Below are positions 3,170-56,166 of a stretch of DNA of 64,000 bases, piece by piece (position 1 is the first letter of the stretch; every line of letters starts with the position of its first letter). The stretch comes from Mesorhizobium sp. (lineage in GTDB: Bacteria > Pseudomonadota > Alphaproteobacteria > Rhizobiales > Rhizobiaceae). The stretch covers positions 143,351 to 207,350 of the forward strand of contig SAPZ01000011.1 of NCBI GenBank assembly GCA_004020875.1. Direction: 5' to 3'. The position numbers and the translations under genes were made by a program. Below the pieces are notes generated by a model. That model did not search any database. It saw only the letters and a program-made list of their open reading frames with translations, and was not told the origin of the DNA.

Positions 3170-4312
3170 CTACCGGAACAAATATTTCGACACTTCGGAA
3201 TTGCCGCGGCGCCACATCACATTGTCGAGGAAATAGTGGTGCACGTTGATGAAGATCAGCACGATGAAGAAGAACAGGGAGGAACCGAGCACCTGTTTGT
3301 CGTAAGGGACCAGCGCGGTCAGCACGAACGGGATCAGCCAGAAGCCGAGATAGCCGAGCGCGCCGCCCCCGATGATGAATCCCAGCACCCGCCACCTGTA
3401 GCGGGGTCCGAGAACGGATAGTATTTTGGGTTCTGGATCGCTCACGGCATCCGAGACGTCGCGCTCGACATTGGTTTGGTAGCGCCAGACAACGGCCAGA
3501 TATTGCAGCGAGTGGAGCGCCGGCACCACCAGCAGCCAGAGCGGGTTTATCCTCGCAATCAGGATCCACAGATAGAGCGAGGCGACATAGGCAACGATGC
3601 CGTTATACGGTAGGCCACCATTTTTTCGCCAATGCCTGGCCAGCATCAGGAGCGTAGCCGCCGTCGATCCGACGGCCGCCAGCACCGCAATGTCGGTGAT
3701 CCATGAAGGCGCGGCGAAAGTGTAATACTGGAGCCCATAATACTGTCCCGCGGTCACCGCCGTGTTGGTCTGCAGCCAGGCCAGGATCCACACCGCGTAG
3801 CTGTTGACGAGCAGCACCTTCTTGTCACGGTCATCGAAGAATTTGCGCTTCAGCACAGCGTCTACCATCAGCATGCCGTAGCCTTGCTTGACGTAGTGCC
3901 AGCCGACGAAGAAGAACATTGCGTTGGCCGCGAAGCCAAGCAGGCGCACGTTCGACATTGCCGCGCCATAAGCGAAGAACAGGGTCATCATCACCGGGAC
4001 GATGACGCCGGCGAAAATGTAGCGAAGCTGCAGGCTTCTGTCGTATCCTTCGCCGCGCACCTTGCGGCCGAAATTGCGATAGAAGATCTGGTAGGAATGG
4101 GCGAAATGCGGATAGTTCACCAGATAGGCAACGACGACCATCGTCGCGGCTAGCGGACCTTCATAGTCGCGCGGCACGAAGAACAGCAGCGGCAGGATCA
4201 GAAAAGCGCTGCCGCCGAGCATGAGGAAATCGGCGACCGGCCCGAAGAGATATTTGCCGCGCGACGTTGCCGGTTTACGGGCCGTGGTCTCTACCGAAAG
4301 GTCAAGTGCCAT
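3170..4312 (-). CDS. Uncharacterised polytopic membrane protein with conserved histidine motifs
   Basis: A 380-residue protein with about nine hydrophobic segments after a short polar N-terminus. I do not recognise a named family. Histidines lie at membrane borders in regular motifs: NYPHFAHSYQIFYRN near residue 87, GWHYVKQGYG near 158, PALHSLQYLAVVWR near 285, and INVHHYFLDNVMWR near the C-terminus. The pattern resembles membrane metalloenzymes (desaturases, hydroxylases, carotenoid dioxygenase-like proteins), but I cannot assign one, so metal binding is inference. It lies convergent to the broken dprA, with 31 bases between them. The length and codon use look like those of a real gene. Confidence 0.75.
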   Translation of the reverse strand: MALDLSVETTARKPATSRGKYLFGPVADFLMLGGSAFLILPLLFFVPRDYEGPLAATMVVVAYLVNYPHFAHSYQIFYRNFGRKVRGEGYDRSLQLRYIFAGVIVPVMMTLFFAYGAAMSNVRLLGFAANAMFFFVGWHYVKQGYGMLMVDAVLKRKFFDDRDKKVLLVNSYAVWILAWLQTNTAVTAGQYYGLQYYTFAAPSWITDIAVLAAVGSTAATLLMLARHWRKNGGLPYNGIVAYVASLYLWILIARINPLWLLVVPALHSLQYLAVVWRYQTNVERDVSDAVSDPEPKILSVLGPRYRWRVLGFIIGGGALGYLGFWLIPFVLTALVPYDKQVLGSSLFFFIVLIFINVHHYFLDNVMWRRGNSEVSKYLFR

Positions 4313-4405
4313 CGTGGAGCCTCCCTCGGAGCCCGAGCTTAACCAGGACCCTGTCCAGGAACAAGGCGACGCGGCAGGATCAATTTGTCTGGGGGAGGTT
4401 CCCTG

Positions 4406-4693
4406 TCAGGCTGAGGCGGTCGAAGCGATCTTCATCAGCCGCTTTCTGGCCTCCGCGACCCGCTGCTGTTCCGACCTTATGCGGTCGCACAGCGCAAGAT
4501 TGATCCCGACGCCGCATTCCTCGTCCAGCAGTTTCTTTGCATGATTGAGCGAAATCTCTGCGCGCTTGACGCGCTGTCTGGCCCTGGCCAGTTCCAAGTT
4601 CAGTACATCCACTGTATCCGCATCCCAAATTGCGGTCCCTTCCGGGATTGAACGGGCGCGAATAATTATTGTTCCGAGCGCCAAGGGCATCAA
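4406..4693 (-). CDS. Small hypothetical protein with coiled-coil tendency
   Basis: A 95-residue open frame. Residues 30-90 are charged and helical (ARARQRVKRAEISLNHAKKLL, then SEQQRVAEARKRLMKIAS), suggesting a short coiled coil; the first 25 residues are hydrophobic or mixed. I do not recognise it. It lies between the His-rich membrane protein and the DUF535 gene on the same strand. Support comes only from the open frame and plausible composition, so it may be spurious. Confidence 0.4.
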   Translation of the reverse strand: MMPLALGTIIIRARSIPEGTAIWDADTVDVLNLELARARQRVKRAEISLNHAKKLLDEECGVGINLALCDRIRSEQQRVAEARKRLMKIASTASA

Positions 4694-4720
4694 GCTGGCC
4701 AGTAATGACGCAAAGCGCGG

Positions 4721-5635
4721 CTATTTCCGAAGCAGAGGGCGAACTGAATCCCTCACCTGCTCTGTGAGTTCATCCTCAAGGCGCCATCGCCTGCGAACCC
4801 GGGCCCGTTTGTTGGGCTTGTACTCGGTAATCTCGCGCTGCGCCTTGGCGATGGGCATGGCGAACATCGAGGGTTCCGTCCGGAGTCCCCCGGATTCCAT
4901 CCAGAAACCGTCATAGTCGGCGGAGATGCGGCGGCGCAAACTGTAATCGGTTGCAAAAACATGTCCCGCATTCGAAACGGCAAAGAGGCCGGACAACCCC
5001 AAGGACCGGCTAAGAACCTGCGCCACGAAAAGGAGCACCGTTTTCGGCCGCATGCCCTCCATGGCGTTCGTCAAGACACGGGCGTCTTCCAGGCTCTGCG
5101 CGCCGGCCGAAACGCTCTTGAGGGCGCCTATCAAAAGGACCTCCCCCGCTCCCTCGATGCGCAACAGCGACCGGTCCACGATTGCCAATCCCATCTCAAT
5201 GATCGGCCGGTGATCCAGACAAAGGATTAGGCGCCACTCCGCTTCCCTGTGGAGGCCGCCCTGGCCGGTCAGATCGACTGCGACTCTCCCCGCGGGTGTC
5301 GCGACGCCAGCTAGTTTCAGGCCGTCAGTGTGGCTCTCGACCAATGCGGCGTCGCCGAGCAGGCGAACCGCTGCGTTGTAGTGGCCCAGCAAGGCTGTTG
5401 CGCGATCGCCGCGCTTCAATCCCACTGTCAGATAGGGGCGGACAACCTTGAGTGGGATATCTGGATAACGGTGGAGGATTGGGGCGAAGGGCTCGGCACC
5501 AAGCCTCAACCCGACGTCGGCGATATCTCCACGATAGAGCCACCGGAGGGCGGCCCATTTGACCGCATGAACCCGCTCGTTAAGCCTGCGGCGGAAAGCG
5601 GAAGGCGCTCGCCTGCCCCGACGTGACGACACCAC
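4721..5635 (-). CDS. DUF535 (VirK/YbjX) family protein
   Basis: A 304-residue protein with the DUF535 signature: RPKTVLLFVAQVLSRSLGL, then the core VSNAGHVF, and RRRISADYDGFWMESGG towards the C-terminus. The family includes VirK of plant-associated and enteric bacteria and E. coli YbjX. The biochemical activity is unknown, with links to envelope stress and peptide resistance in enterics. The frame opens with a GTG at 5635 and no strong ribosome site is evident, so a later start is possible. It appears monocistronic, about 235 bases from the tRNA-Lys gene. Confidence 0.85.
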   Translation of the reverse strand: MVSSRRGRRAPSAFRRRLNERVHAVKWAALRWLYRGDIADVGLRLGAEPFAPILHRYPDIPLKVVRPYLTVGLKRGDRATALLGHYNAAVRLLGDAALVESHTDGLKLAGVATPAGRVAVDLTGQGGLHREAEWRLILCLDHRPIIEMGLAIVDRSLLRIEGAGEVLLIGALKSVSAGAQSLEDARVLTNAMEGMRPKTVLLFVAQVLSRSLGLSGLFAVSNAGHVFATDYSLRRRISADYDGFWMESGGLRTEPSMFAMPIAKAQREITEYKPNKRARVRRRWRLEDELTEQVRDSVRPLLRK

Positions 5636-5870
5636 TGCCCCATAATTCTATTCGGCGCGACACCAAGATAATACTTCTGTGGTGATCGCCGATGGCAAGA
5701 CTTCAAGGACGGCTAGATCCGTTCATCGGAACCAGTTCTGCTGCTCAATCGCATGCTCGAACCAAGCCGCGAGCCCGCCCTATCGCGAACCGCATCCCCA
5801 GGCAATTTACAAAAATGTAAAGAACAGGCGGAAAGCGTAGCGGCAAATGTGAGTCGGACACTTGTGTTTG
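5636..5870. other. Intergenic region upstream of the DUF535 gene
   Basis: This 235-base stretch lies between the DUF535 start and the tRNA-Lys 3' end. I see no convincing gene, palindrome or repeat. It presumably holds the DUF535 promoter and the trailer of the tRNA transcript. Confidence 0.4.
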
Positions 5871-5946
5871 TGGTGAGCGCGATGGGATTCGAACCCATGA
5901 CCTACTGATTAAAAGTCAGTTGCTCTACCGGCTGAGCTACGCGCTC
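5871..5946 (-). tRNA. tRNA-Lys (anticodon TTT)
   Basis: On the minus strand a complete cloverleaf can be folded. The acceptor stem GAGCGCG pairs with CGCGCTC, and the D arm reads TAGCTCAGCCGGTAGAGC. The anticodon arm CTGACTTTTAATCAG gives anticodon TTT, and the T arm ATGGGTTCGAATCCCAT carries the universal TTCGAAT. The discriminator A is followed by an encoded CCA at 5871-5873. Length is 76 nt including CCA. Confidence 0.97.
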
Positions 5947-6231
5947 CCGCGGGCTCGAAACGCCGCCCTCGAAATTGCGCGGAACATAGGGAGAGTGCCG
6001 CGACCGGTCAACCGGAAAAAGACGGGCTTCCAAGGCGGATTTTTTCAACGGATTCGAAGCGACGTCGAGAGTGCTTGCGAGCGGCTTACGATGCCTGCGC
6101 CAATGGCCCGGCGCCGGATCACTTCAGAAATCCCTACAATAACAATGGGCTGATGCCGAAATGGGGAACCATTGCAACCCCGACCCGTTTCGCCAAACAG
6201 GACATTCCTTCAACCCTCGAGGAGAAGAGTA

Positions 6232-6684
6232 ATGAACAAGATCGCATCGGGCCTGCTGGCCACCGCGCTCTCGGCGTCATTCATCGCGGCGGAGATGGTG
6301 CCGGTCAACGCTCAGCCAAACTATGTGCCGCAACCCCAGGCCATGTCGGATGTCCAGACCGTGCAGTATCAGGATTGGAGAAGACACCGCAGCTTCAACC
6401 GGGATTTCTTGCGCGGTGATGGCGCCGTCTACTGGAACGGCCATCGCGGCTATCGCGAATATCGCCACGGCTATCGCCGTCATGGCGACTACTGGTTCCC
6501 GCTGGCTGCTTTCGCCACCGGCGCTCTGATCACCGGCGCTATCGTCAACAGCGAGAACAGTCGCGTCCATCGCGGCGATGCGCATGTGCAGTGGTGCTAT
6601 GACCGCTACCGCTCGTATCGCGCCTCGGACAACACATTCCAGCCCAACAACGGCCCGCGTCGGCAGTGCGTGTCGCCGTACTGA
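6232..6684 (+). CDS. BA14K family secreted or envelope protein
   Basis: A 150-residue protein with an N-terminal signal peptide (hydrophobic segment up to about residue 27, cleavage near VNAQ). A Tyr/Arg/His-rich middle (GHRGYREYRHGYRRHGDYW) and one membrane-like segment (AAFATGALITGAIV) precede the BA14K hallmark, VQWCYDRYRSYRASDNTFQP followed by GPRRQC. BA14K proteins are immunoreactive, lectin-like envelope proteins of Rhizobiales first described in Brucella. The ATG at 6232 has an upstream GAGGAGA ribosome site. An upstream in-frame start at 6172 would place polar residues before the signal peptide and is rejected. A hairpin terminator follows. Confidence 0.92.
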   Translation: MNKIASGLLATALSASFIAAEMVPVNAQPNYVPQPQAMSDVQTVQYQDWRRHRSFNRDFLRGDGAVYWNGHRGYREYRHGYRRHGDYWFPLAAFATGALITGAIVNSENSRVHRGDAHVQWCYDRYRSYRASDNTFQPNNGPRRQCVSPY

Positions 6685-6718
6685 CGGCCTCCAGTCAGTA
6701 CCCAGGGTCGTTGACCGG

Positions 6719-6750
6719 GCCCGCGCCTCGAGAGGCGCGGGCTCTCTCGT
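6719..6750 (+). terminator. Hairpin terminator after the BA14K gene
   Basis: An 11-base GC-rich arm GCCCGCGCCTC (6719-6729) pairs with GAGGCGCGGGC (6732-6742) and is followed by a weak T-rich tail, TCTCTCGTTT. It lies 35 bases downstream of the BA14K stop. Confidence 0.75.
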
Positions 6751-6771
6751 TTCGGCTCGGCTGAACCGCCA

Positions 6772-6836
6772 GAGCAATTCCAGGAAAGGTATGAGCGGTT
6801 TTCCGCCCGCAACGCGTAAAAACAAATAGATAGCGA
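6772..6836. repeat. RIME-like intergenic repeat, copy 1
   Basis: The segment begins GAGCAATTCCAGGAAAGG, continues through GAGCGGTTTTCCG, and ends in the A-rich AACGCGTAAAAACAAATAGA. The same ordered blocks recur at 30702-30768 and, more diverged, at 42532-42580. The element abuts the 3' end of the broken DUF6882 gene. Confidence 0.7.
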
Positions 6837-7310
6837 TCAGTTCGCCCATCTGATGCTTTTGAAAACCAGGTACAGCGCTCCACCTTCGCCACGCGGTGAT
6901 CGGTAGGCTGCTAGTGCGTTGCACACCCGCACCATGGCCCCGGTCAGTTCCCAACCAAGAGCCTCCAGGTCGCCGTTCGCATCGACCTAGGCCTGTGCCA
7001 AGTCACCTATGCCCTTTTCCTCGCCGAAGGCCCGAACCAACTTGGCATCGCCGAGAAGATTGCCAGGCAGGTTCGAATTGGCCCATGCCCACAGCCAGTT
7101 GCCAGCCTTGGCGCTGGTGGAACCCGAGATCTGGATTTCAGAGACGACCTTGACGCCGGCCGTGTCGGAGAACGACAAGGTTCCGGCCGTCAGGTCGTAG
7201 TCGTAACGCGACCAACGACCGAGGCGGAAATCCTTCTCCAGGCGCGCGTTCTTGGCGGTAAGTTCTTCAAACGCCTCATCGCGCCAAGCAGGATACCAAT
7301 CCGGTTGCAT
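6837..7310 (-). pseudogene. DUF6882 family protein interrupted by an in-frame TAG
   Basis: The first 107 codons encode a DUF6882-like protein: TAGTLSFSDTAG, then SEIQISGSTSAKAGNWLWAW and ANSNLPGNLLG. A TAG at 6987-6989 (codon 108) ends this frame. Without any shift, the same frame then continues for 49 sense codons (ALGWELTGAMVRVCNALAAY, then GEGGALYLVFKSIRWAN) to a TGA at 6837. That continuation looks like the natural C-terminus, so a single substitution probably broke a 157-residue gene. It starts 21 bases after glpK on the same strand and may have been co-transcribed with it. Function is unknown. Readthrough is possible but there is no evidence for it. Confidence 0.8.
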
Positions 7311-7331
7311 TCTCCCCCGATCCAGTGATCG

Positions 7332-8825
<1,494 letters not shown>

Positions 8826-8849
8826 TCCGTTCCTCCACTACTCATGGAA

Positions 8850-8904
8850 CAGGGGAGACGGCCAAGCCGCCTCCCCTGCATTTCCTACACAGGCCCGCGG
8901 GCCT
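8850..8904 (-). promoter_or_regulatory. Paired stem-loops in the glpV-glpK gap
   Basis: A long hairpin spans 8850-8878: CAGGGGAG pairs with CTCCCCTG, one mismatch follows, and CGGC pairs with GCCG around a CAA loop. A palindrome AGGCCCGCGGGCCT follows close to the glpV stop. No T-run follows on the minus strand, so it looks more like an mRNA-processing or 3'-end-stabilising structure than a full terminator. It would favour higher glpV than glpK message. Confidence 0.55.
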
Positions 8905-8915
8905 GCGTCATGCAG

Positions 8916-10640
8916 TTACTTCTGCCAGCTCTTCACCAGCTCGTCGTAGTTGACGGTGATCGGCTTGTCCTTTTCGTTCTCGACCTTCAGCTGCGGCGCA
9001 AGATTGCCCTTCGAGACGGCATCCTTGTTCCAGTATTCGAGATCGTGCTCCTCGGCCATCTTCGGTCCGATATCGCCCTGGACGCCGGATTTCTCGAGAC
9101 GGGAGAGCACCTTCTCCTGGTCTGCGCAGAGCGAGTCCATCGCTTCCTGCGGGGTCTTCGCGCCGGACGACGCATCGCCGATGTTCTGCCACCAGAGCTG
9201 CGCCAGCTTCGGATAGTCCGGCACGTTGGTGCCGGTCGGGGTCCACTGCACGCGCGCCGGCGAGCGGTAGAACTCGATCAGGCCGCCGAGCTTCGGCGCC
9301 CGCTCGGTGAAGCTCTTGTCGTGGATGGTGGAGTCGCGGACGAAGGTCAGGCCGACTTGGCTCTTCTTCACGTCGACCGTTTTCGACACCACGAACTGCG
9401 CATAGAGCCACGCGGCCTTGGCGCGATCCGTCGGGGTCGACTTCAGCAGCGTCCACGAACCGGCGTCCTGGTAGCCGAGCTTCATGCCGTCCTTCCAATA
9501 GACGCCATGCGGCGACGGCGCGACGCGCCATTTCGGCGTGCCGTCCTCGTTCACGACCGGCAGGCCGGGCTTGGCCATGTCGGCTGTGAAGGCCGTGTAC
9601 CAGAAGATCTGCTGAGCGATGTTGCCCTGCGAGGGAACCGGACCCGATTCGGAGAAGGTCATGCCCTGCGCTTCCGGCGGCGCGTAGGCCTTCAGCCAGT
9701 CGAGATACTTCTGGATGGCATAGACCGAGGCTGGGGCATTCGTGTCGCCGCCGCGCGCGGAGCACGATCCGACAGGACGCGAATTTTCGTCGACCTTGAT
9801 GCCCCATTCGTCGACCGGCTTGCCGTTCGGGATGCCCTTGTCGCCATTGCCTGCCATGGAGAGCCAGGCATCGGTGAACCGCCAGCCGAGCGACGGGTCC
9901 TTCTTGCCGTAGTCCATGTGGCCGTAGACCTTCTTGCCGCCGATCTCGCGGCCGGTGAAGAACTGGGCGATGTCCTCATAGGCCGACCAGTTGACTGGCA
10001 CGCCGAGGTCGTAGCCATACTTGGCTTTGAAGTCGGCCTTGTTCTTCTCGTCGTTGAACCAGTCGTAGCGGAACCAGTAGAGGTTGGCGAATTGCTGGTC
10101 GGGCAGCTGGTAGAGCTTGCCGTCCGGCGCGGTGGTGAACGACTTGCCGATGAAGTCGTCGACGTCGAGCATCGGATCGGTGACGTCCTTGCCCTCGCCG
10201 GCCATCCAGTCGGTCAGGTTACGCGCCTGCTGATAGCGCCAGTGCGTGCCGATGAGATCCGAGTCGTTGACCCAGCCGTCATAGAGGTTCTGCCCGGTCT
10301 GCATCTGGGTCTGGATCTTCTCGACGACGTCTCCTTCCTGGATGACGTCATGCGTGACCTTGATGCCGGTGATGGCGGTGAAGGCCGGCGCAAGCACCTG
10401 GGATTCATACTGGTGCGTGGTCAGCGTTTCCGACACGACCTTGATTTCCATGCCGGCGAACGGCTTGGCCGCGTCGACGAACCACTGCATTTCCTTTTCT
10501 TGGTCGGCGCGCGAAAGCGTCGACAATGGGCCTATCTCCTTGTCGAGAAAGGCTTTTGCCTCGTCCATCCCGGCGTAGGCGTGCCCGGCGCCGAGCAAAA
10601 GGACGAGGGCTGTCGTTGATGTTAGGAATTGCCGTCGCAT
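8916..10640 (-). CDS. glpV: Glycerol ABC transporter substrate-binding protein
   Basis: A 574-residue periplasmic binding protein with a clear signal peptide (residues 1-23, MRRQFLTSTTALVLLL to AYA). It resembles the long GlpV type of the rhizobial glycerol importer. Extracellular binding-protein features include the N-lobe sequence EIKVVSETLTTHQYESQVLAP and TGQNLYDGW, and the later ARVQWTPTGTNVPDYPKLAQ. It lies downstream of the small membrane protein glpU and upstream of glpK. In this family the receptor gene follows the ATPase and permease genes, as here. Confidence 0.92.
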   Translation of the reverse strand: MRRQFLTSTTALVLLLGAGHAYAGMDEAKAFLDKEIGPLSTLSRADQEKEMQWFVDAAKPFAGMEIKVVSETLTTHQYESQVLAPAFTAITGIKVTHDVIQEGDVVEKIQTQMQTGQNLYDGWVNDSDLIGTHWRYQQARNLTDWMAGEGKDVTDPMLDVDDFIGKSFTTAPDGKLYQLPDQQFANLYWFRYDWFNDEKNKADFKAKYGYDLGVPVNWSAYEDIAQFFTGREIGGKKVYGHMDYGKKDPSLGWRFTDAWLSMAGNGDKGIPNGKPVDEWGIKVDENSRPVGSCSARGGDTNAPASVYAIQKYLDWLKAYAPPEAQGMTFSESGPVPSQGNIAQQIFWYTAFTADMAKPGLPVVNEDGTPKWRVAPSPHGVYWKDGMKLGYQDAGSWTLLKSTPTDRAKAAWLYAQFVVSKTVDVKKSQVGLTFVRDSTIHDKSFTERAPKLGGLIEFYRSPARVQWTPTGTNVPDYPKLAQLWWQNIGDASSGAKTPQEAMDSLCADQEKVLSRLEKSGVQGDIGPKMAEEHDLEYWNKDAVSKGNLAPQLKVENEKDKPITVNYDELVKSWQK

Positions 10641-17532: not shown

Positions 17533-18945
17533 TCAGGATAAGCGCCGCGCAATCTCGGTTATGACGTCGAAAGCGGCGTCGACATCGGCCGCCGTCGACT
17601 CGAACTGCCCCGCCTGAAAGCGGATCGCCACGAGCCCGTCGACCCTGGTTTGCGTCAGGTAAATGCGGCCTTCGGTGTTGATGGTGTCGACCAGCCGCAG
17701 ATTGTGCTCGTCCGGATCGGTACCCGAAGGCGCTTGGTGCCGGAACGAAAACAGCGACAGCATCGGCTCGCTGACGAGCTCGAAATCCGCTTCCCTGGCG
17801 AGCCGCGCGGCCAGTCCTTCGCTCCAGGCGACGTGGTTGCGGATCATATTGCGCAAACCTTCGAGGCCATGGGCCCGCAGCAGGAACCAGAGTTTGAGCG
17901 CACGGAAACGGCGCCCGAGCGGCACCGACCACTCCGAATAGTTGATGATGCCGTCGTGCCCCAACGTCTTCAAAAACTCCGGCTTTATGGCCAGCGTGCG
18001 CACCAGGTCTTCCGGCTGACGAATGAACTGGATCGAGCAATCGAATTGCGCGCCGAGCCACTTGTGCGGATTGAAGACGATGGAGTCCGCGCCTTCGACG
18101 CCCGCCCAGAAATGCCGGTATTCCGGGCAGATCATCGCCGATCCGGCCCAGGCGGCGTCGACATGCAGGTAAAGCCCCTGCCGCTTTGCGACCGCGGCCA
18201 CCGGGGCGATGTCGTCGGTGCCGCCAATGCTGGTGCCGCCGACGCAAGCGATGATGCCGGCCGGCAGCAGGCCGGCCTCGCGATCGGCGACGATCGCGGC
18301 CTCAAGTGCGGCCGTATCCATGGCGCGAAAACGTCCTGAGACCGGAATGCGGACGAGGTTCTCCTCGCCGATGCCTGAGACCCAGATGGCGCGGTCGATC
18401 GAGGTATGGACCTGGTCGGAGGAATAGACGCGCAGCTTGCCCTGTCCGGCCAGCCCGTTTTTGTTGCCCTGCCAGTCGAGCGCCCGCTCTCGCATGGTGA
18501 GCACCGCCGCAAGCGTCGCCGACGAGGCCGAATCCTGGATGACGCCGGAAAAGCCCTCGGGCAGGCCAAGCGCCTGGCGCATCCAGTCGACGATGCGCGT
18601 CTCGAGTTCGGTCGCAGCCGGCGAGGTCTGCCACAGCATGCACTGCGCGGCCATCGCCGAGACCAGATACTCCGCCACGACCGAGACCGGCGCCGCATTG
18701 GCGGGGAAATAGGCGAAGAAGCGCGGATGCTGCCAATGCGTCATGCCAGGCACGATCTTTTCTTCGAAATCGGCGAAGATCTTCTCCATCGGTTCGGGCA
18801 ATTCGGGCGGCGAAACCTCGATGCTCCGGAAAATCTCGCCCGGCGCGATTGCCGGCCGCACCGGACGGTCGCGCAAGCCGGCGCGGTAGTCGACGCCCCA
18901 GTCGGCCGCCCGCCTCGACCAGTCGCGGAATGTCTCGTTGTTCAT
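17533..18945 (-). CDS. PLP-dependent aromatic amino acid decarboxylase family protein
   Basis: A 470-residue group II decarboxylase. The PLP-binding lysine is Lys295 in FNPHKWLGAQFD. Upstream, HVDAAWAGSAMICPE holds the Asp and Ala that contact the cofactor ring, and the N-terminal THWQHPRFFAYFPAN block is typical of aromatic-L-amino-acid and tyrosine/tryptophan decarboxylases. The substrate cannot be fixed from sequence. It follows the Anbu cassette on the same strand, with 93 bases between them, and may or may not be part of that transcription unit. Confidence 0.9.
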   Translation of the reverse strand: MNNETFRDWSRRAADWGVDYRAGLRDRPVRPAIAPGEIFRSIEVSPPELPEPMEKIFADFEEKIVPGMTHWQHPRFFAYFPANAAPVSVVAEYLVSAMAAQCMLWQTSPAATELETRIVDWMRQALGLPEGFSGVIQDSASSATLAAVLTMRERALDWQGNKNGLAGQGKLRVYSSDQVHTSIDRAIWVSGIGEENLVRIPVSGRFRAMDTAALEAAIVADREAGLLPAGIIACVGGTSIGGTDDIAPVAAVAKRQGLYLHVDAAWAGSAMICPEYRHFWAGVEGADSIVFNPHKWLGAQFDCSIQFIRQPEDLVRTLAIKPEFLKTLGHDGIINYSEWSVPLGRRFRALKLWFLLRAHGLEGLRNMIRNHVAWSEGLAARLAREADFELVSEPMLSLFSFRHQAPSGTDPDEHNLRLVDTINTEGRIYLTQTRVDGLVAIRFQAGQFESTAADVDAAFDVITEIARRLS

Positions 18946-19038
18946 CTATCCTCCCGACCCCAGCCGCAATGCGGCGGGTAAACCAGCTTCGATATTGATC
19001 AACATGTTAAGTGCGCAAAAGGCCGCGAAATGCGAACC

Positions 19039-19770
19039 CTAACCGGGAAAATCCGGCAGGCTGGCAAAGGCCGTTTTCAAGGCGTTCGACCAGCCGTCGG
19101 AGATGGTGCGGTAATAGGGATCGTCCTGGCGGATGCGCCTGTTGAGCCCGACCTTGAAACTGTCCTTCTCCAGGAACAGCAGATCGAGCGGCAGCCCGAC
19201 CGAAAGGTTGGATTTCAGCGTCGAGTCGAACGACACCAGAAGCAGCTTCACCGTTTCGGCCAGGCCCATTGTCGGGTCATAGGCACGGATGATGATCGGC
19301 TTGCCGTATTTCGTCTCGCCGATCTGGAAGAAAGGCGTGTCATCGGTCGACTCGATGAAATTGCCTTCCGGATAGATCATGAACAGCCTGGGCGGGCTGC
19401 CCTTGATCTGGCCGCCGAGGATGAAGGAGGCATTGAAGTAGGAATCCGCCTTGTCGCCGTTCGGCGAGGCATGTTCGATGACTTCCTTGACCGTATCGCC
19501 GACCAGCCGCACCGTCTGGTACATGGACGGCGTCTCGAGCAGCTTCGGATGACGGTCGCCAACGGCCTTGTTGCGCTCGTCGAGCAGGCTGACGACGGCT
19601 TGCGTGGTGGCAAGGTTGCCCGCCGACATCAGCACGATCACGCGCTCGCCGGGCTCTTCCCAGACGTGCATTTTCTTGAAGGTCGAGATCGAATCCATGC
19701 CGGCATTGGTGCGCGTGTCCGACATGAACACGAGCCCCCGATCGATCTTGAGGCCGACGCAATAGGTCAC
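19039..19770 (-). CDS. Anbu, proteasome-related (HslV-like) peptidase
   Basis: A 243-residue Ntn-hydrolase of the Anbu family. It starts MTYCVGLKID, so removal of Met exposes Thr2 as the N-terminal nucleophile. GLVFMSDTRTNAGMDSISTF and the Lys in FKKMHVW are the conserved strand and catalytic-site blocks of the proteasome/HslV fold. Anbu subunits form open helical rings and have no ATPase partner encoded nearby. As in other proteobacteria, the gene is the last of a cassette with ATP-grasp, alpha-E and transglutaminase-like genes. The physiological substrate is unknown. Confidence 0.93.
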   Translation of the reverse strand: MTYCVGLKIDRGLVFMSDTRTNAGMDSISTFKKMHVWEEPGERVIVLMSAGNLATTQAVVSLLDERNKAVGDRHPKLLETPSMYQTVRLVGDTVKEVIEHASPNGDKADSYFNASFILGGQIKGSPPRLFMIYPEGNFIESTDDTPFFQIGETKYGKPIIIRAYDPTMGLAETVKLLLVSFDSTLKSNLSVGLPLDLLFLEKDSFKVGLNRRIRQDDPYYRTISDGWSNALKTAFASLPDFPG

Positions 19771-19802
19771 GATTCTTCTTTAACAGCGAATCCCGTCGGA
19801 AA

Positions 19803-20597
19803 TTACTGCTCCACCGTGACGGTGACGGCAAGCTTCTCTTGCGCCTGCCCCAGCAGTATCCCCGACACCGGCGAGGCGTCGCGATAATCGCGCCCCGTCG
19901 CCACCCGCACATAGCGTTCGTCGGGAGAAATACCGTTGGCCGGATCAAAGGCAACCCATCCGAGCCCCACGACATAGGCCTCGGCCCAGGCATGGCTTGC
20001 AGCCTGCTCGACGGCCGCATCCATCATCAGGTAACCGCTGACATAGCGAGCCGGAAAGCCAAGCGCGACGGCCCCGGCGATGAAGATATGGCTGTGATCC
20101 TGGCAAACGCCGGATTTGAGCGCCAGGGCCTCTTCCGCCGGCGTGACGACGCTGGTCGTGCCCGGTCTGTAGGCGACCCGTTCGCGGATGGCGGCCATCA
20201 ACCTGTGCAGCCGCTCGATCTCGGTTCCCTGCCCGAGCGAGCCGGCCAGTTCACGTATGCCCTCGCCGGCGGCGGTAAGCTGCGTCTGCTGGCCGAACAG
20301 CCAGAGCGGGGCAAAGCCCTGATGCGCGCCCGTCACGCCCGCCGTGTCATGCGTGGTCACCTCTCCCGCCGCCTCGACGGTGATCGTGCTGTGCCCGCTC
20401 TCAGCGCTCACCAGCCGCGTGTCGTTACCGAAATGATCGGTGAAGCGCACCTCCTCGCGCGCGCCTTCGACCTTGATAGCCCAGGAGCCGACGGTCTGCG
20501 TCCGTCCGCTCAGGGGCAGCAGGCGCAGCCGCTGCAGCAGGTATTGCACCGGCGCGTCGTAGCGGTACTCGGTGCGATGGGTGATCTTGAGCCGCAT
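19803..20597 (-). CDS. Transglutaminase-like cysteine peptidase family protein
   Basis: A 264-residue protein: an N-terminal beta domain (MRLKITHRTEYRYDAPVQYL) followed by the transglutaminase core. The triad is visible: Cys in LKSGVCQDHSHIFIAGAVAL, His in ASHAWAEAYVVGLGWVAFD, and Asp in the following FDPANG. No signal peptide is seen, so it is cytoplasmic. It lies 21 bases after the alpha-E gene and 32 before anbu. In this context it is predicted to cleave or exchange amide bonds of peptides made by the ATP-grasp partner. This is inference from conserved neighbourhood. Confidence 0.92.
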   Translation of the reverse strand: MRLKITHRTEYRYDAPVQYLLQRLRLLPLSGRTQTVGSWAIKVEGAREEVRFTDHFGNDTRLVSAESGHSTITVEAAGEVTTHDTAGVTGAHQGFAPLWLFGQQTQLTAAGEGIRELAGSLGQGTEIERLHRLMAAIRERVAYRPGTTSVVTPAEEALALKSGVCQDHSHIFIAGAVALGFPARYVSGYLMMDAAVEQAASHAWAEAYVVGLGWVAFDPANGISPDERYVRVATGRDYRDASPVSGILLGQAQEKLAVTVTVEQ

Positions 20598-20618
20598 GAC
20601 GCCCGCCCTCAGCCCCGC

Positions 20619-21560
20619 TCAATAGAACCGGTAATCCTGGGCAATCTCGTCGCCCAGCCTGGTGTTGTCGCGAATGAACTCGGCCAGAAATTCGTGCAGG
20701 CCGTGATCGAATATGTCCTTGATCGAGCCCCTCTTGAGCAACGCCTGGATCTTCTCGGCCGTGGCGTGGCAGGCATGGCGCTCGCCATAGTCGTCGGCGA
20801 GGAATTTCAGGTGCTCGCCGAGGAAGCGATAGCAGAATGTCAGCGAGCGCGGCATGCGCACATTGAGGATCAGATAGTCGGCAATATTCGTCGGCTTGTA
20901 GTCGGCCTCATAGACCCAGCGATAGGATCGATGCGCCGACACCGAGCGCAGGATCGACTCCCACTGGTAGTTGTCCAGCGTCGAGCCGACCCAGGACAGC
21001 GAAGGCAAGAGAACATAATATTTCACGTCAAGGATGCGCGCCGTGTTGTCGGCGCGCTCGACATAGGTGCCAAGCTGCGAAAAATCGAAAATCTCGTTGC
21101 GCAGCATCGTGCCGTAGAACGAACCGCGGATCAGCGCCGTCTCGCGCTTGATGGAATCGAGCACCGTCGGCAGGTCGCGCTCGTCGATCGGCTTCGCCAG
21201 CATGCGCTTCAGCGACATCCAGGCTTCGTTGATGCTTTCCCAGGTCTCGCGCGTCAGCGCCGTTCGCACCATGCGGGCATTGTTGCGCGCCGTCTCGATC
21301 GACGACATCGTGCTCGACGGGTTCGAGGTGTCGCGCAGCAGAAAGTCGGAGACGTTGGCAGCGGTGTAGTCCTGGTATTTCTGCGAGAACGCATAGTCCG
21401 AGCCGGCGCTGAGCAGCACCGAATTCCATTCCTCCGACGCGTTCTGCGTGCGCGTCAGCGCCATGCGCAGGCCGGCATCGACGAGACGCGCCATGTTTTC
21501 GGCTCGCTCGATATAGCGGTTCATCCAATAGAGACCGTTTGCGGTGCGGCCCAAAAGCAT
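20619..21560 (-). CDS. Alpha-E domain-containing protein
   Basis: A 313-residue, almost entirely helical protein. It starts MLLGRTANGLYWMNRYIERA, the defining opening of the alpha-E family, and later has GTYVERADNTARILDVKYY and LILNVRMPRSLTFCY. Alpha-E proteins are nearly always encoded beside a circularly permuted type 2 ATP-grasp protein and a transglutaminase, as here. Their molecular role is unknown. In this genome a four-helix-bundle insertion separates it from its usual upstream ATP-grasp partner by about 470 bases. Confidence 0.93.
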   Translation of the reverse strand: MLLGRTANGLYWMNRYIERAENMARLVDAGLRMALTRTQNASEEWNSVLLSAGSDYAFSQKYQDYTAANVSDFLLRDTSNPSSTMSSIETARNNARMVRTALTRETWESINEAWMSLKRMLAKPIDERDLPTVLDSIKRETALIRGSFYGTMLRNEIFDFSQLGTYVERADNTARILDVKYYVLLPSLSWVGSTLDNYQWESILRSVSAHRSYRWVYEADYKPTNIADYLILNVRMPRSLTFCYRFLGEHLKFLADDYGERHACHATAEKIQALLKRGSIKDIFDHGLHEFLAEFIRDNTRLGDEIAQDYRFY

Positions 21561-21581
21561 CTCAGCTTGCTCCGGTGTCGA

Positions 21582-21616
21582 GCGAATAGCGAATAGGGAG
21601 TAGCGAATAGGGAAAA
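21582..21616. repeat. Heptamer tandem array, left flank of the four-helix-bundle insertion
   Basis: Five consecutive 7-base units: GCGAATA, GCGAATA, GGGAGTA, GCGAATA, GGGAAAA. The same units occur in inverted orientation at about 22007-22028 on the other side of the broken four-helix-bundle gene. The array lies just upstream of the alpha-E start codon. Confidence 0.8.
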
Positions 21617-21623
21617 AAGGACT

Positions 21624-21992
21624 TCATGACTTTTGTTGCAGGCTCCTGATCATCGAACGCAGCTTTTCCCGATTTCATCAGTTTGGCCAAGCAAGCTGGC
21701 AACCTCCGCTTCGACCATTAGTCTCACCTCCCCACACAGGATGAGATGTGTCTCCAACTCTTTAAGAGAGCCCTGCGCCGCGCGAAGAAATTGAATAAAG
21801 GCTCCTGTACTTTCTCTTCCATGCCCCTCTGCGACATTCGCTGCGATGGAAGCCCCCGAGCGTCGTATCTGAGAGGTCATCCCGTACACTTCACCGTTTG
21901 GAAAACCTCCTGTGGCCGAGTAGCAATTCACTGCCAACTTCAATGCCGCCTTCCAACGACGAGTTCCCTGTAGGAATTGATTGCCGTCGTAT
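21624..21992 (-). pseudogene. Four-helix-bundle protein (S23/Avd-like family), frameshifted
   Basis: The open centre encodes LAVNCYSATGGFPNGEVYG, then TSQIRRSGASIAANVAEGHG, typical of the four-helix-bundle family that includes 23S-rRNA intervening-sequence proteins. Three single-base losses are inferred. One is at the presumed start near 21991 (AT_ACGACG after AGGAGGGGG). One is near 21954, where YRELVV would join WKAALKL. One is near 21663, where EIGK would continue as MLRSMIRSLQQKS to a TGA at 21624. The family has no known enzymatic activity. The gene is bracketed by inverted heptamer arrays and splits the Anbu cassette. Confidence 0.8.
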
Positions 21993-22006
21993 CCCCCTCC
22001 TTCCCT

Positions 22007-22028
22007 TATTCGCTACTCTCTATCGCTC
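22007..22028. repeat. Heptamer array, right flank (inverted relative to 21582-21616)
   Basis: TATTCGC, TACTCTC and TATCGCTC on the plus strand are the reverse complements, with small changes, of the units at 21582-21616. The array ends 1 base before the stop codon of the ATP-grasp gene. Confidence 0.7.
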
Positions 22029-22029
22029 T

Positions 22030-23442
22030 TTAATCATCCAACACCCACGTGTCCTTCGTCCCGCCCCCTTGCGAGGAATTGACGACAAGCGAACCCTCCT
22101 TGAGCGCGACACGCGTCAAGCCGCCCGGCACGATCTGGATTCGGTCCGAAACCAGCACGTAAGGCCGAAGATCGACATGACGCGGCGAAAGACCCTTTTC
22201 GGTCAGGATCGGACAGGTCGACAGCGCCAGCGTCGGCTGGGCGATATAGTTCGAGGGCTTCGCCTGCAGCTTCTTGGCGAACTCCTGGCATTCCTTCTTG
22301 GTCGCGGTGGGGCCGACCAGCATGCCGTAGCCGCCGGAGCCGTGCACTTCCTTGATCACCAGCTCGCTGATGTGCTCGAGCACATATTTGAGGCTGTCCG
22401 GCTCCGAGCAGCGCCAGGTCGGGATGTTGCCGAGGATGGCCTTGCGGCCGGTGTAGAACTCGACGATCTCGGGCATGTAGGAATAAATCGCCTTGTCGTC
22501 GGCGATTCCGGTGCCAGGCGCATTGGCGATGGTGATGTTGCCGGCGCGGTAGACATCCATGATGCCCGGCACGCCGAGCGCGGAGTCCGGGCGGAAAGTC
22601 AGCGGATCGAGGAAAGCGTCGTCGACGCGGCGGTAAAGCACATCGATCTGCTTGTAGCCTTCGGTCGTGCGCATCGCGACGTGGCCGTCAACGACGCGCA
22701 GATCCTGCCCCTCGACGAGCTGCACGCCCATCTGGTCCGCAAGGAAGGCATGCTCGAAATAGGCAGAGTTGTAGGAGCCTGGCGTCAGCACCGCGATGGT
22801 CGGCGCGCCCTTGGCGCTTTGCGGCCGCACCGCGGCGAGCGACTGGCGCAGGAGTTGCGGATAGTTCTCGACCGGCCGCACCTTGATCTTCTGGAACAAC
22901 TCCGGAAAGAGCTGCATCATCGTCTCGCGGTTCTCCAGCATGTAGGAGACACCGGACGGCGTGCGGGCATTGTCCTCCAGCACGTAGAAGTCGTTCTCCG
23001 ATATGCGGACGATGTCGACGCCGATGATATGAGTGTAGACGCCGGCCGGCGGCCTGACACCGATCATCTCGGGCAGGAAGGCCTCGTTCCTGGCAACGAG
23101 ATCCCTCGGCACGCGCCCGGCCCGCAGGATCTCCTGGCGGTGATAGATGTCGTCGAGAAAGGCGTTCAGCGCCTGCACGCGCTGCTCGATGCCCTGTGTC
23201 AGCCGGCGCCATTCCTGGCCGGATAGGATGCGCGGCACAATGTCGAAAGGGATCAGCCGTTCGGACGCTTCCTGCTCGCCATAGACGGCAAAGGTGATAC
23301 CGGTCTTGCGGAAGACGCGCTCGGCGTCCTGCATTTTCTGGGTAAGCCTGGCCGGGTCCTGCTCCTTCAGCCAGCGATCATAAGCCTCATAAGGTCTTCT
23401 CAATCCGGAAACGTCCGGAAGCATTTCATCGAAGGCTGCCAA
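22030..23442 (-). CDS. Circularly permuted type 2 ATP-grasp protein
   Basis: A 470-residue ATP-grasp ligase-like protein. Key blocks are IGVDIVRISENDFYVLEDNA and RTPSGVSYMLENR, then LTPGSYNSAYFEHAFLADQ, VIKEVHGSGGYGMLVGP, and the C-terminal HVDLRPYVLVSDRI. ATP-grasp enzymes form amide bonds through an acyl phosphate; this class is predicted to make or ligate short peptides. TTG 23442 is preferred because AGAGGGGAG lies seven bases upstream and the product then begins AAFDEMLPD. An ATG at 23499 would add a 19-residue extension. It is the first gene of the Anbu cassette. Confidence 0.92.
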   Translation of the reverse strand: MAAFDEMLPDVSGLRRPYEAYDRWLKEQDPARLTQKMQDAERVFRKTGITFAVYGEQEASERLIPFDIVPRILSGQEWRRLTQGIEQRVQALNAFLDDIYHRQEILRAGRVPRDLVARNEAFLPEMIGVRPPAGVYTHIIGVDIVRISENDFYVLEDNARTPSGVSYMLENRETMMQLFPELFQKIKVRPVENYPQLLRQSLAAVRPQSAKGAPTIAVLTPGSYNSAYFEHAFLADQMGVQLVEGQDLRVVDGHVAMRTTEGYKQIDVLYRRVDDAFLDPLTFRPDSALGVPGIMDVYRAGNITIANAPGTGIADDKAIYSYMPEIVEFYTGRKAILGNIPTWRCSEPDSLKYVLEHISELVIKEVHGSGGYGMLVGPTATKKECQEFAKKLQAKPSNYIAQPTLALSTCPILTEKGLSPRHVDLRPYVLVSDRIQIVPGGLTRVALKEGSLVVNSSQGGGTKDTWVLDD

Positions 23443-23609
23443 TCGCGTACTCCCCTCTAAGACCATTTCACTGGCCTGGCCGGAGAAAATCAAGCGCAAT
23501 CGGTGATTTAAGAAGCGATGACGGCCGCTCTATGCAAATTGCCTAATTTTAAGGCATGAGCACCAAGACCAGGTCACCTCCTGCTTCCGGGCCGGGCATC
23601 GCCAGCCGG

Positions 23610-23846
23610 TCAGAACGCCCGGAAGGTGACGATGGTGAAGGTGTCCTTGATTCCGGGCAGGATCTGCACCCGCTCATTGACGAAGTGGCCGATATCCTCC
23701 ACGTCGTCGACGTAGAATTTGGCGAGCAGGTCGTAATTGCCGGCGGTCGAGTAGATTTCGGAGGCGATCTCGGCGTCAGCAAGCGCGCTGGCGACCTCAT
23801 AGGCCTTGCCCAGATCGCATTTAATCTGCACGAAAAATGCCTTCAT
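23610..23846 (-). CDS. Stand-alone Lrp/AsnC ligand-binding (RAM) domain protein
   Basis: A 78-residue protein consisting of only the ligand-binding domain of Lrp/AsnC regulators: VQIKCDLGKAYEVASALADA, then STAGNYDLLAKFYVDD and LPGIKDTFTIVTF. There is no helix-turn-helix, so it cannot bind DNA alone. Such stand-alone RAM proteins form ring oligomers that bind amino acids and may mix with full Lrp proteins. It appears monocistronic. Confidence 0.9.
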   Translation of the reverse strand: MKAFFVQIKCDLGKAYEVASALADAEIASEIYSTAGNYDLLAKFYVDDVEDIGHFVNERVQILPGIKDTFTIVTFRAF

Positions 23847-24056
23847 TGCCTGGTCCTGCCGCCTGCGTCATGAATAAGCGGCCCTTGTGGCAGACTGCCG
23901 CCCGGCTTTCAAGCTTCACGCGCCGCGCAGATCAAAGAGTACCTGCTCCCGCCTCCGGCGGGAAATGGCGAAATCTTCGCAGGTCGGTGAAACCACGCCG
24001 TGCCGCGACGCGTATATTAGAGTAGTTCGGCAAGCGAATTTCCCGGGAGGCAGCCA

Positions 24057-24476
24057 ATGCGCCGCGCATTGTTCGCGTTAGCTATTGTTCCAATGCTGAT
24101 GACCTCGTCTGCCTTGGCCGGCGATGCGGAGGTCAAGGCCGCGCAGACGGTTATCGACAGCCAGCTGAAGGCCTTCATCGCCAATGATGGCGCCGCCGCC
24201 TATAGTTTCGCCGCGCCGAACGTGAAGCAGATATTTCCGACCGTCGAAACCTTCATGAACATGGTGACGAATGGCTACGCGCCCGTGCGAAAACCCCAAT
24301 CCTATTCCTTCGGCAAGGTCGAGGAGACGGGGCCAGGTTCGATCGTCCAGCAGGTCCTGATCGTCGGGCCCGACGGTAAGGATTACGAGGCGGTCTATAC
24401 GCTGCAGCAGCAGGCGGATGGCAGCTTCAAGATCACCGGCTGCAGCCTGCGAGCCTCGACCTCGGTCAGCACCTGA
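24057..24476 (+). CDS. DUF4864 domain-containing secreted protein
   Basis: A 139-residue protein with a signal peptide (MRRALFALAIVPMLMTSSALA, cleavage near residue 21). The rest matches the DUF4864 pattern: VIDSQLKAFIANDGAAAYSF, NVKQIFPTVETFMNMVTNGY, and the final DGSFKITGCSL. The fold is probably NTF2-like. Function is unknown. GGGAGG lies just before the ATG. Confidence 0.88.
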   Translation: MRRALFALAIVPMLMTSSALAGDAEVKAAQTVIDSQLKAFIANDGAAAYSFAAPNVKQIFPTVETFMNMVTNGYAPVRKPQSYSFGKVEETGPGSIVQQVLIVGPDGKDYEAVYTLQQQADGSFKITGCSLRASTSVST

Positions 24477-56150: not shown

Positions 56151-56166
56151 TGCAAGCGACGTGCCA
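56151..56166 (-). promoter_or_regulatory. Sigma-54 (RpoN) promoter of urtABCDE
   Basis: On the minus strand TGGCACGTCGCTTGCA has the -24 element TGGCACG and the -12 element TTGC at exact spacing (GG to GC 12 bases). This is a near-perfect match to the RpoN consensus. It predicts a transcript start about 35 bases upstream of the urtA ATG and nitrogen control, probably by NtrC. Confidence 0.85.

Follow-up and report, generated by a model that had tools for sequence, protein, structure and literature searches.

Which of the genes around the proteasome-like hydrolase Anbu form a functional unit in Mesorhizobium, and what is the long insert that separates the first two of them? Both questions are raised by a gene cassette at positions 19039-23442 of a 64,000-nucleotide stretch of the genome of Mesorhizobium sp. 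(contig SAPZ01000011.1, positions 143,351 to 207,350; this whole stretch is called the window below). Four minus-strand genes are transcribed in the order ATP-grasp ligase, alpha-E protein, transglutaminase-like (TG) enzyme and Anbu, and 469 bases (21561-22029, minus strand) separate the ATP-grasp gene from the alpha-E gene. The explanation of the whole locus that we prefer, and rate somewhat above even, is that it is the known Anbu operon, making and unmaking an amide, into which an unrelated element resembling an intervening sequence has been inserted. The insert lies inside the coordinates that an initial annotation of this DNA, made from the sequence, had assigned to the cassette, and was not mentioned there. 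In Mesorhizobium the operon is often interrupted in this way by a fast-changing palindromic insert, which may be the more interesting find. In order of transcription, the cassette and its insert comprise:

22030-23442, minus strand: ATP-grasp ligase, circularly permuted, 470 amino acids (aa), TTG start; first gene of the cassette (PF14403, E 1.7e-167)
21996-22023, no strand assigned: outer arm of the insert, on the ATP-grasp side, 82% complementary to 21593-21620
21650-21943, minus strand: open reading frame (ORF) for a four-helix-bundle / 23S rRNA intervening-sequence protein, 97 aa from TTG (PF05635, E 5e-28)
21581-21620, no strand assigned: inner arm of the insert, on the alpha-E side, inverted array
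20619-21560, minus strand: alpha-E, 313 aa, all-helical (PF04168, E 1.2e-92)
19803-20597, minus strand: TG cysteine enzyme, 264 aa (PF08379, E 3.6e-21; PF01841, E 2.1e-23)
19039-19770, minus strand: Anbu, proteasome-like N-terminal-nucleophile (Ntn) hydrolase, 243 aa, GTG start, Thr2 nucleophile (PF00227, E 9e-07)

The cassette is the already published Anbu operon, here in Mesorhizobium. The co-occurrence of the same four families in the same order is described in passages of PMC5666114 and PMC6376114, which credit the operon to Valas and Bourne 2008 and Iyer et al. 2009, and the conserved order of ATP-grasp, alpha-E and TG-like genes is found at the present locus. Residues 3-470 of the ATP-grasp protein align nearly end to end with a solved relative, 3n6x (E 2.1e-197), which was deposited as a putative glutathionylspermidine synthase; this alignment and the full-length match to PF14403 place the protein among the circularly permuted ATP-grasp enzymes of type 2. 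Anbu matched five PDB sequences, three of them named Anbu and two named peptidase (best 5loy_A, E 1.5e-95), and it shows the features of its family, with no propeptide, a threonine directly after the start codon and equivalents of Asp17 and Lys32/33. Judged from sequence, the catalytic residues of the cassette enzymes look intact: Thr2, Asp18 and Lys33 of Anbu are identical in 96/96 aligned loci, and the TG triad is conserved at Cys165 in 109/117, His202 in 113/115 and Asp218 in 115/115. The initial annotation had described four minus-strand genes ending in an Ntn hydrolase with Thr2 as nucleophile, and the coordinates, the family matches and the conservation of Thr2 all agree with it. For alpha-E no PDB sequence matched at E ≤ 1. 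An AlphaFold2 model of this protein, built from 61 sequences, was all-helical (pLDDT 90.0, pTM 0.88), and its Foldseek comparison with the PDB gave 87 matches at E ≤ 10 and 0 at E ≤ 0.001; for a predicted model, such a lack of matches does not prove a new fold.

Between the ATP-grasp and alpha-E genes, inverted arrays of a 7-base unit enclose the PF05635 ORF. The insert thereby has the inverted-repeat stem around an S23p/four-helix ORF by which 23S rRNA intervening sequences are recognized, with an ORF that looks decayed in the window, and it lies between two protein-coding genes instead of in a 23S rRNA helix. We read it as an intervening-sequence-like element in the operon mRNA and infer that the mRNA stem could be a processing site uncoupling ATP-grasp from alpha-E, TG and Anbu. 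The arms are predicted to pair into a long mRNA stem resembling that of 23S rRNA intervening sequences; cleavage of this stem by RNase III would separate the ATP-grasp mRNA from that of alpha-E, TG and Anbu. Three gaps from other strains that hold arrays only, chosen from 24 such gaps, had folding z-scores of -8.3, -6.4 and -7.2. Allowing at most 2 mismatches, a 22-base piece of the inner arm has 10 occurrences in the genome when its own is counted (reversed control 0), and the same genome contains one PF05635 match. Rfam gave no match at E ≤ 1 over 18900-24100.

The gap was then compared within the genus. Of 61 same-genus genomes, 59 have a stand-alone alpha-E of this type, and the gap was measured in 58 of the 59, L205 being left out at a contig end; lengths were counted with the ATP-grasp stop codon, and classes were set by length. 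A gap of 24 bp without insert was found at 11 of the 58 loci, one of 122-188 bp with arrays only at 24, one of 465-505 bp with arrays and a four-helix ORF at 13 (window included), and one of 91-97 bp with the inner arm only at eight, while the remaining two were of other kinds. The best period was 7 in 69/74 arms. The repeat unit differs between strains and tends to match between the two arms of one element: over the 37 elements at this site, arms scored a mean of 20.47 with their own partner vs 14.53 with others, and 0/10000 permutations reached a value as high. In many arrays-only elements (among L161-L207), the inner arm is spanned by a 20-codon ORF (MPYSIEIQ...) that ends a short way ahead of alpha-E. 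Variation in this micro-ORF falls mostly at third codon positions (25 vs 13 and 8 over 13 different rows with one broken row out; 27 vs 17 and 10 with that row included), which is only suggestive of coding because, as we read them, arms oriented this way are free of stop codons in any case.

The four-helix protein has been under purifying selection at the ATP-grasp/alpha-E site. Over 78 pairs from the 13 copies at this site, decayed ones included, the median ratio of nonsynonymous to synonymous differences (pN/pS) was 0.17, and pN was below pS in all pairs. The whole conserved frame is kept in 9/13 copies; the window copy departs from its relatives at both frame ends and looks decayed, and the copies at L166, L209 and L213 are also altered. 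Ten of the 11 copies with a conserved start block have no in-frame ATG, GTG or TTG before that block, where by eye an ACG is conserved.

The strongest competitor to the intervening-sequence reading, which we place below even, sees in the insert an ordinary mobile element, or else a simple repeat that is passive and plays no part as RNA. Array pieces are dispersed in the genome and short insert-free gaps exist, as might also be seen with an insertion sequence or a miniature inverted-repeat transposable element. On a tree of the flanking coding sequences, the insert class also changes almost at random, with 28 changes vs a shuffled mean of 30.1 (as low in 32/200 shuffles; 26 changes in one count that left out the two gaps of other kinds), and the no-insert class by itself is somewhat clustered (8 changes vs a shuffled mean of 10.3; as low in 19/500). 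What speaks against a mobile or passive insert is, first, that the bodies of the four-helix genes diverge in step with their flanks (Mantel r 0.82, p 1e-4; r 0.69 when the two deepest rows are left out), so that recent gene transposition is not needed to explain them. In addition, no transposase gene was noticed beside the insert; the elements lie codirectionally in operons and form strong hairpins; and 32 locus records fall at only five sites (see below). Since its divergence follows that of the flanks, we do not favour the idea that the four-helix gene was recently transposed into the cassette. The loops of arrays-only elements follow flank divergence weakly (Mantel r 0.18, p 0.03). These sequences are read most simply as an old insertion that deletion or recombination has repeatedly removed or replaced, instead of as a gene that arrived afresh many times.

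Elements of this kind are not confined to the cassette. PF05635 is present in 12/26 relatives and in 27/150 genomes of the phylum. The 32 PF05635 locus records among near relatives, some of which are pieces of one gene, reduce by flank similarity to five sites. As identified from one representative per site, two of these lie between ATP-grasp and alpha-E and between nuoC and nuoD; the other three lie between a glutamine synthetase-like and an FAD oxidoreductase gene, in the gap before a 3-hydroxyisobutyrate dehydrogenase-like gene and in the gap after tolB. Two flanking ORFs submitted for site identification matched no family. Mesorhizobium carries the nuoC/nuoD element, within the genes of complex I, and the similarity of the flanks places it also in G010 and G023, two genomes from outside that genus (L106, L108-L110, L137, L138).

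We scored inverted repeats on the 180-bp flanks of four-helix genes with a threshold of 20, using controls 600 bp further out and leaving out partial four-helix matches (7 in near relatives, 3 in the phylum). Scores of at least 20 were obtained at 17/25 near-relative loci (Mesorhizobium plus G010 and G023; controls 0/22, largest 12) and at 5/20 loci elsewhere in the phylum (controls 0/19, largest 14). Strong 7- or 8-base arrays were present in 31/76 flanks of 38 other Pseudomonadota loci, in 0 shuffled flanks and in 0 flanks taken 500 bp away. A plasmid search with the window protein matched 22 records, of which 20 bear cyanobacterial names. Four of the 14 plasmid regions examined scored at least 20 (largest control 12.5), and across 13 cyanobacterial regions strong 7-base arrays were found in 14/26 flanks, compared with 0 shuffled flanks and 1 flank 500 bp away. 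Genes on both sides are codirectional in 10/13 cyanobacterial regions, by our reading of incomplete gene tables.

Four-helix genes also stand inside CRISPR-Cas operons on cyanobacterial plasmids (L220, L223, L225), twice between cas6 and cas4 and once between cas10 and cmr3, where they may be passengers rather than Cas accessories. In Pseudanabaena (L225), long direct 7-base arrays lie on both flanks of the four-helix gene.

Several observations weigh against an intervening-sequence-like role for the insert and its relatives. The window gap folds only modestly better than its shuffles (z -2.28; 2/100 as low), and the window flanks score 18, which is under the threshold although above the largest control of 12. 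Elsewhere in the phylum 15/20 loci score under 20, L225 and L227 carry direct instead of inverted arrays, and several loci lack any array. The agreement between arms has limits as well: an arm's own partner is its single best partner in 8/37 elements, and when the permutation test is limited to the 13 elements with a gene, p becomes 0.013. To our knowledge, RNase III cleavage has been shown for no such element outside rRNA.

A broader proposal, which we put forward tentatively and think rather doubtful, is that four-helix (S23p/IVP) genes and inverted 7-base arrays constitute one widespread family of intervening elements in operon mRNAs (nuo, tol, the Anbu cassette, CRISPR-Cas, conjugation) of Pseudomonadota and Cyanobacteriota, uniting 23S rRNA intervening sequences with the heptamers of Xanthomonas and Nostoc. 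The arms would evolve in concert while their unit drifts, RNase III would cut the stem from the transcript, the four-helix protein would maintain or copy the arrays, and gene-less elements would be its dependants. If this were true, a protein family named after rRNA would really belong to an operon-inserting element, and the repeats of Xanthomonas, Nostoc and rRNA would be one phenomenon that could tune expression inside operons, those of complex I included.

Turning to the cassette itself, we asked which genes belong together. An order sample of 121 genomes, drawn evenly from a larger group, contained alpha-E in 87 genomes, stand-alone in 86 by open-frame lengths, and Anbu in 76. Stand-alone alpha-E was present in 76/76 Anbu genomes (Fisher p 1e-21, uncorrected for relatedness) and, without Anbu, in 10 others. 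Anbu was codirectional within 2.5 kb of alpha-E in 64 of the 76; in the remaining 12 it was nearby in another arrangement (8), hundreds of kb away (2) or on another contig (2). The collinear order ATP-grasp, alpha-E, TG, Anbu was kept at 32 of 40 order loci, which we had chosen from 77 Anbu places. The claim in the initial annotation that these families co-occur is upheld by these counts.

A second sample, of named genomes, consisted of the best 80 of at least 587 alpha-E loci. TG was present at 80 of these loci, ATP-grasp at 79 and Anbu at 57; at the sole locus without ATP-grasp, the contig begins at alpha-E. ATP-grasp, alpha-E and TG were present with Anbu absent from the examined flank at 23/80 loci, one of which, L265, cannot be judged for Anbu because its sequence ends just after TG. 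The Anbu-less loci are named Rhizobium, Agrobacterium, Sinorhizobium, Shinella, Martelella, Burkholderia, Caballeronia or Rhizobiales bacterium. Because of these frequencies, we read ATP-grasp, alpha-E and TG as the stable unit and Anbu as an accessory, as far as gene content can tell. The joint four-gene system proposed at first holds as a matter of co-occurrence, and the case for Anbu as a required step of it is weakened.

A second amidoligase-type cassette in the same genome bears on the place of alpha-E. At L003 (G000:C17:378000-396000), ORFs at 3613-6972, 6979-9393 and 9493-10377 encode a 1119-aa TG-like protein (by eye), an 804-aa fusion of ATP-grasp with alpha-E, for which 3n6x is likewise a match (E 1.1e-64), and another TG-like protein, of 294 aa; no proteasome-like ORF was noticed by eye among the ORFs listed there. 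ATP-grasp, alpha-E and TG-like proteins are thus grouped in both cassettes, and at L003 the first two are one protein. Fusions of ATP-grasp with alpha-E occur in 51/121 order genomes, as read from open-frame lengths. Because of the fusion in the second cassette and the near-constant adjacency of the separate genes, alpha-E probably works physically with ATP-grasp, and the earlier suggestion that it is a partner of this enzyme gains support.

From its family, the ATP-grasp enzyme would activate a carboxylate with ATP and join it to an amine, and the TG enzyme, with its Cys-His-Asp triad, would cleave or transfer that amide, so that the three-gene core would make and unmake a small amide-linked product. 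Anbu would be an accessory Ntn hydrolase that most of the sampled lineages, though not every one, have in addition and that may hydrolyse a further amide. Passages of PMC6376114 report that phosphate is released from ATP by the ATP-grasp homologue of Yersinia bercovieri.

The core product most likely serves the nitrogen economy, which is our first choice of role because of published data on expression under nitrogen control. In the parts of PMC7801951 concerned, Pseudomonas putida PP_2685-2688 are listed as controlled by NtrB/NtrC, and in the table's first column, taken as wild type, nitrogen limitation raises PP_2686-2688 by 11- to 15-fold. In Burkholderia cenocepacia, I35_5080-83 (a DUF404/DUF403/transglutaminase cluster) are 6- to 9-fold lower in an ntrC mutant, according to the relevant part of PMC5491218. 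We scanned the window for sigma-54 and NtrC consensus patterns and obtained 29 sigma-54 matches against a shuffled expectation of 28.85 and 27 NtrC matches against 37.70. The sole sigma-54-type match with 0 mismatches in the window lies at 56151-56166 (minus strand).

Other results count against this account of the cassette. Neither a sigma-54 nor an NtrC-like site was found between the ATP-grasp gene and position 24056, and nitrogen control is for this reason not shown at the present locus. We know of no substrate or product for any cassette gene. In the same column of the Pseudomonas putida table (PMC7801951), the Anbu gene, PP_2685, is up 1.12-fold; co-expression and pull-down gave no specific interaction in the experiments described in part of PMC6376114, and attempts to reach another form of Anbu by co-expression failed according to a passage of PMC5666114.

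Of the other functions that could be assigned to the cassette, the one that survives best, though we think it unlikely, is that of the initial annotation, in which ATP-grasp tags proteins or peptides and TG and Anbu trim or degrade the tagged product. It draws on the same gene set and on the conserved Ntn and Cys active sites, and the Thr1 of Pseudomonas Anbu binds epoxomicin and MG132, as stated in part of PMC5666114. However, Anbu is absent from the examined flank at 23 of the 80 core loci, which argues against an obligatory role for it; sections of the same two papers report that Pseudomonas Anbu showed no activity towards a standard set of substrates (PMC5666114), that an Anbu homologue cleaved none of the tested peptides (PMC6376114) and that no complex was found. 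Peptide tagging and turnover counts as unproven. Still less probable is that Anbu is an independent protease merely sharing its locus with an amidoligase pathway: in 12/76 Anbu genomes, Anbu and alpha-E are not placed codirectionally within 2.5 kb of each other, as that would allow, but 0/76 lack a stand-alone alpha-E, and Anbu, never found without alpha-E in the 121-genome sample, therefore goes with the core there. That the neighbouring decarboxylase supplies an amine to ATP-grasp seems very improbable and largely refuted by synteny, since the gene, though adjacent and codirectional at same-genus loci, adjoins Anbu in 3/76 Anbu genomes, all of one genus, and is absent from the examined flank of the Mesorhizobium locus L303.

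Two genes next to the cassette were assigned neither to it nor to the system:

17533-18945, minus strand: PLP-dependent decarboxylase (PF00282, E 1.3e-94)
23611-23846, minus strand: gene for a stand-alone Lrp/AsnC ligand-binding domain (PF01037, E 2.3e-13)

The decarboxylase lies 93 bases downstream of Anbu, the distance originally given. As a member of the cassette it is ruled out by its synteny, and its proposed part as source or user of an amine drops out by the criterion set in the initial annotation, absence from other Anbu loci. It adjoins the cassette at 2/40 order loci, both of the same genus, and at 8 of the best 80 alpha-E loci, seven of them loci of Mesorhizobium type and one, in Celeribacter, with a distant protein of 28% identity. 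By this distribution it appears to be a genus-level neighbour that is not involved in the cassette. The Lrp/AsnC gene adjoins the cassette at 2/40 and 10/80 loci of the same samples and by the same token appears to be a lineage neighbour; it is also seen upstream of the cassette in Mesorhizobium, Aquamicrobium and one Hyphomicrobiales locus.

For work on the cassette, the unit of study narrows to ATP-grasp, alpha-E and TG, which could be approached in strains that naturally lack Anbu alongside. The decarboxylase can be set aside, and alpha-E offers a confident all-helical model with no solved counterpart at Foldseek E ≤ 0.001.

Compared with known systems, the cassette has the four families, the order and the Thr nucleophile with Asp and Lys of the published Anbu operon, and differs from it in the 469-bp insert between ATP-grasp and alpha-E and in the genus-level decarboxylase after Anbu. 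The rim and rlo operons of Pseudomonas, in the part of PMC12239564 that describes them, likewise combine an ATP-grasp ligase with a peptidase, to which rlo adds a transglutaminase-fold protein; their peptidase is retropepsin-like where the cassette has Anbu, RloB is described as an inactive membrane protein, and alpha-E has 0 occurrences in the portion of text available. For the insert, heptameric repeats are described in part of PMC4692102 as GGGAATC in Xanthomonas and GGGGA(C/T)T in Nostoc. These, too, are tandem arrays of 7 bases that lie preferentially in the gaps separating aligned ORFs, and those of Xanthomonas often form inverted convergent pairs. S23, four-helix and helix bundle have 0 occurrences in the available text of that paper, whereas the arrays of the insert frame a four-helix gene and their unit varies between elements. 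Among open-licence PMC papers we found no prior link of four-helix genes with heptamer arrays. The accessory protein Avd of diversity-generating retroelements is reported, in a passage of PMC10053308, to be homologous to PF05635. The insert also resembles the 23S rRNA intervening sequence of Coxiella, in which, according to part of PMC4990558, a stem contains an S23p ORF with tandem heptamers upstream of it, and for which excision by RNase III was shown in vitro. The inverted-repeat stem around an S23p ORF and the heptamers are shared; intervening sequences of that kind sit in helices of 23S rRNA and are cut by RNase III, whereas the present insert sits between protein-coding genes and its cut is putative. 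On present evidence, the insert appears to be a new variant of the intervening-sequence kind.

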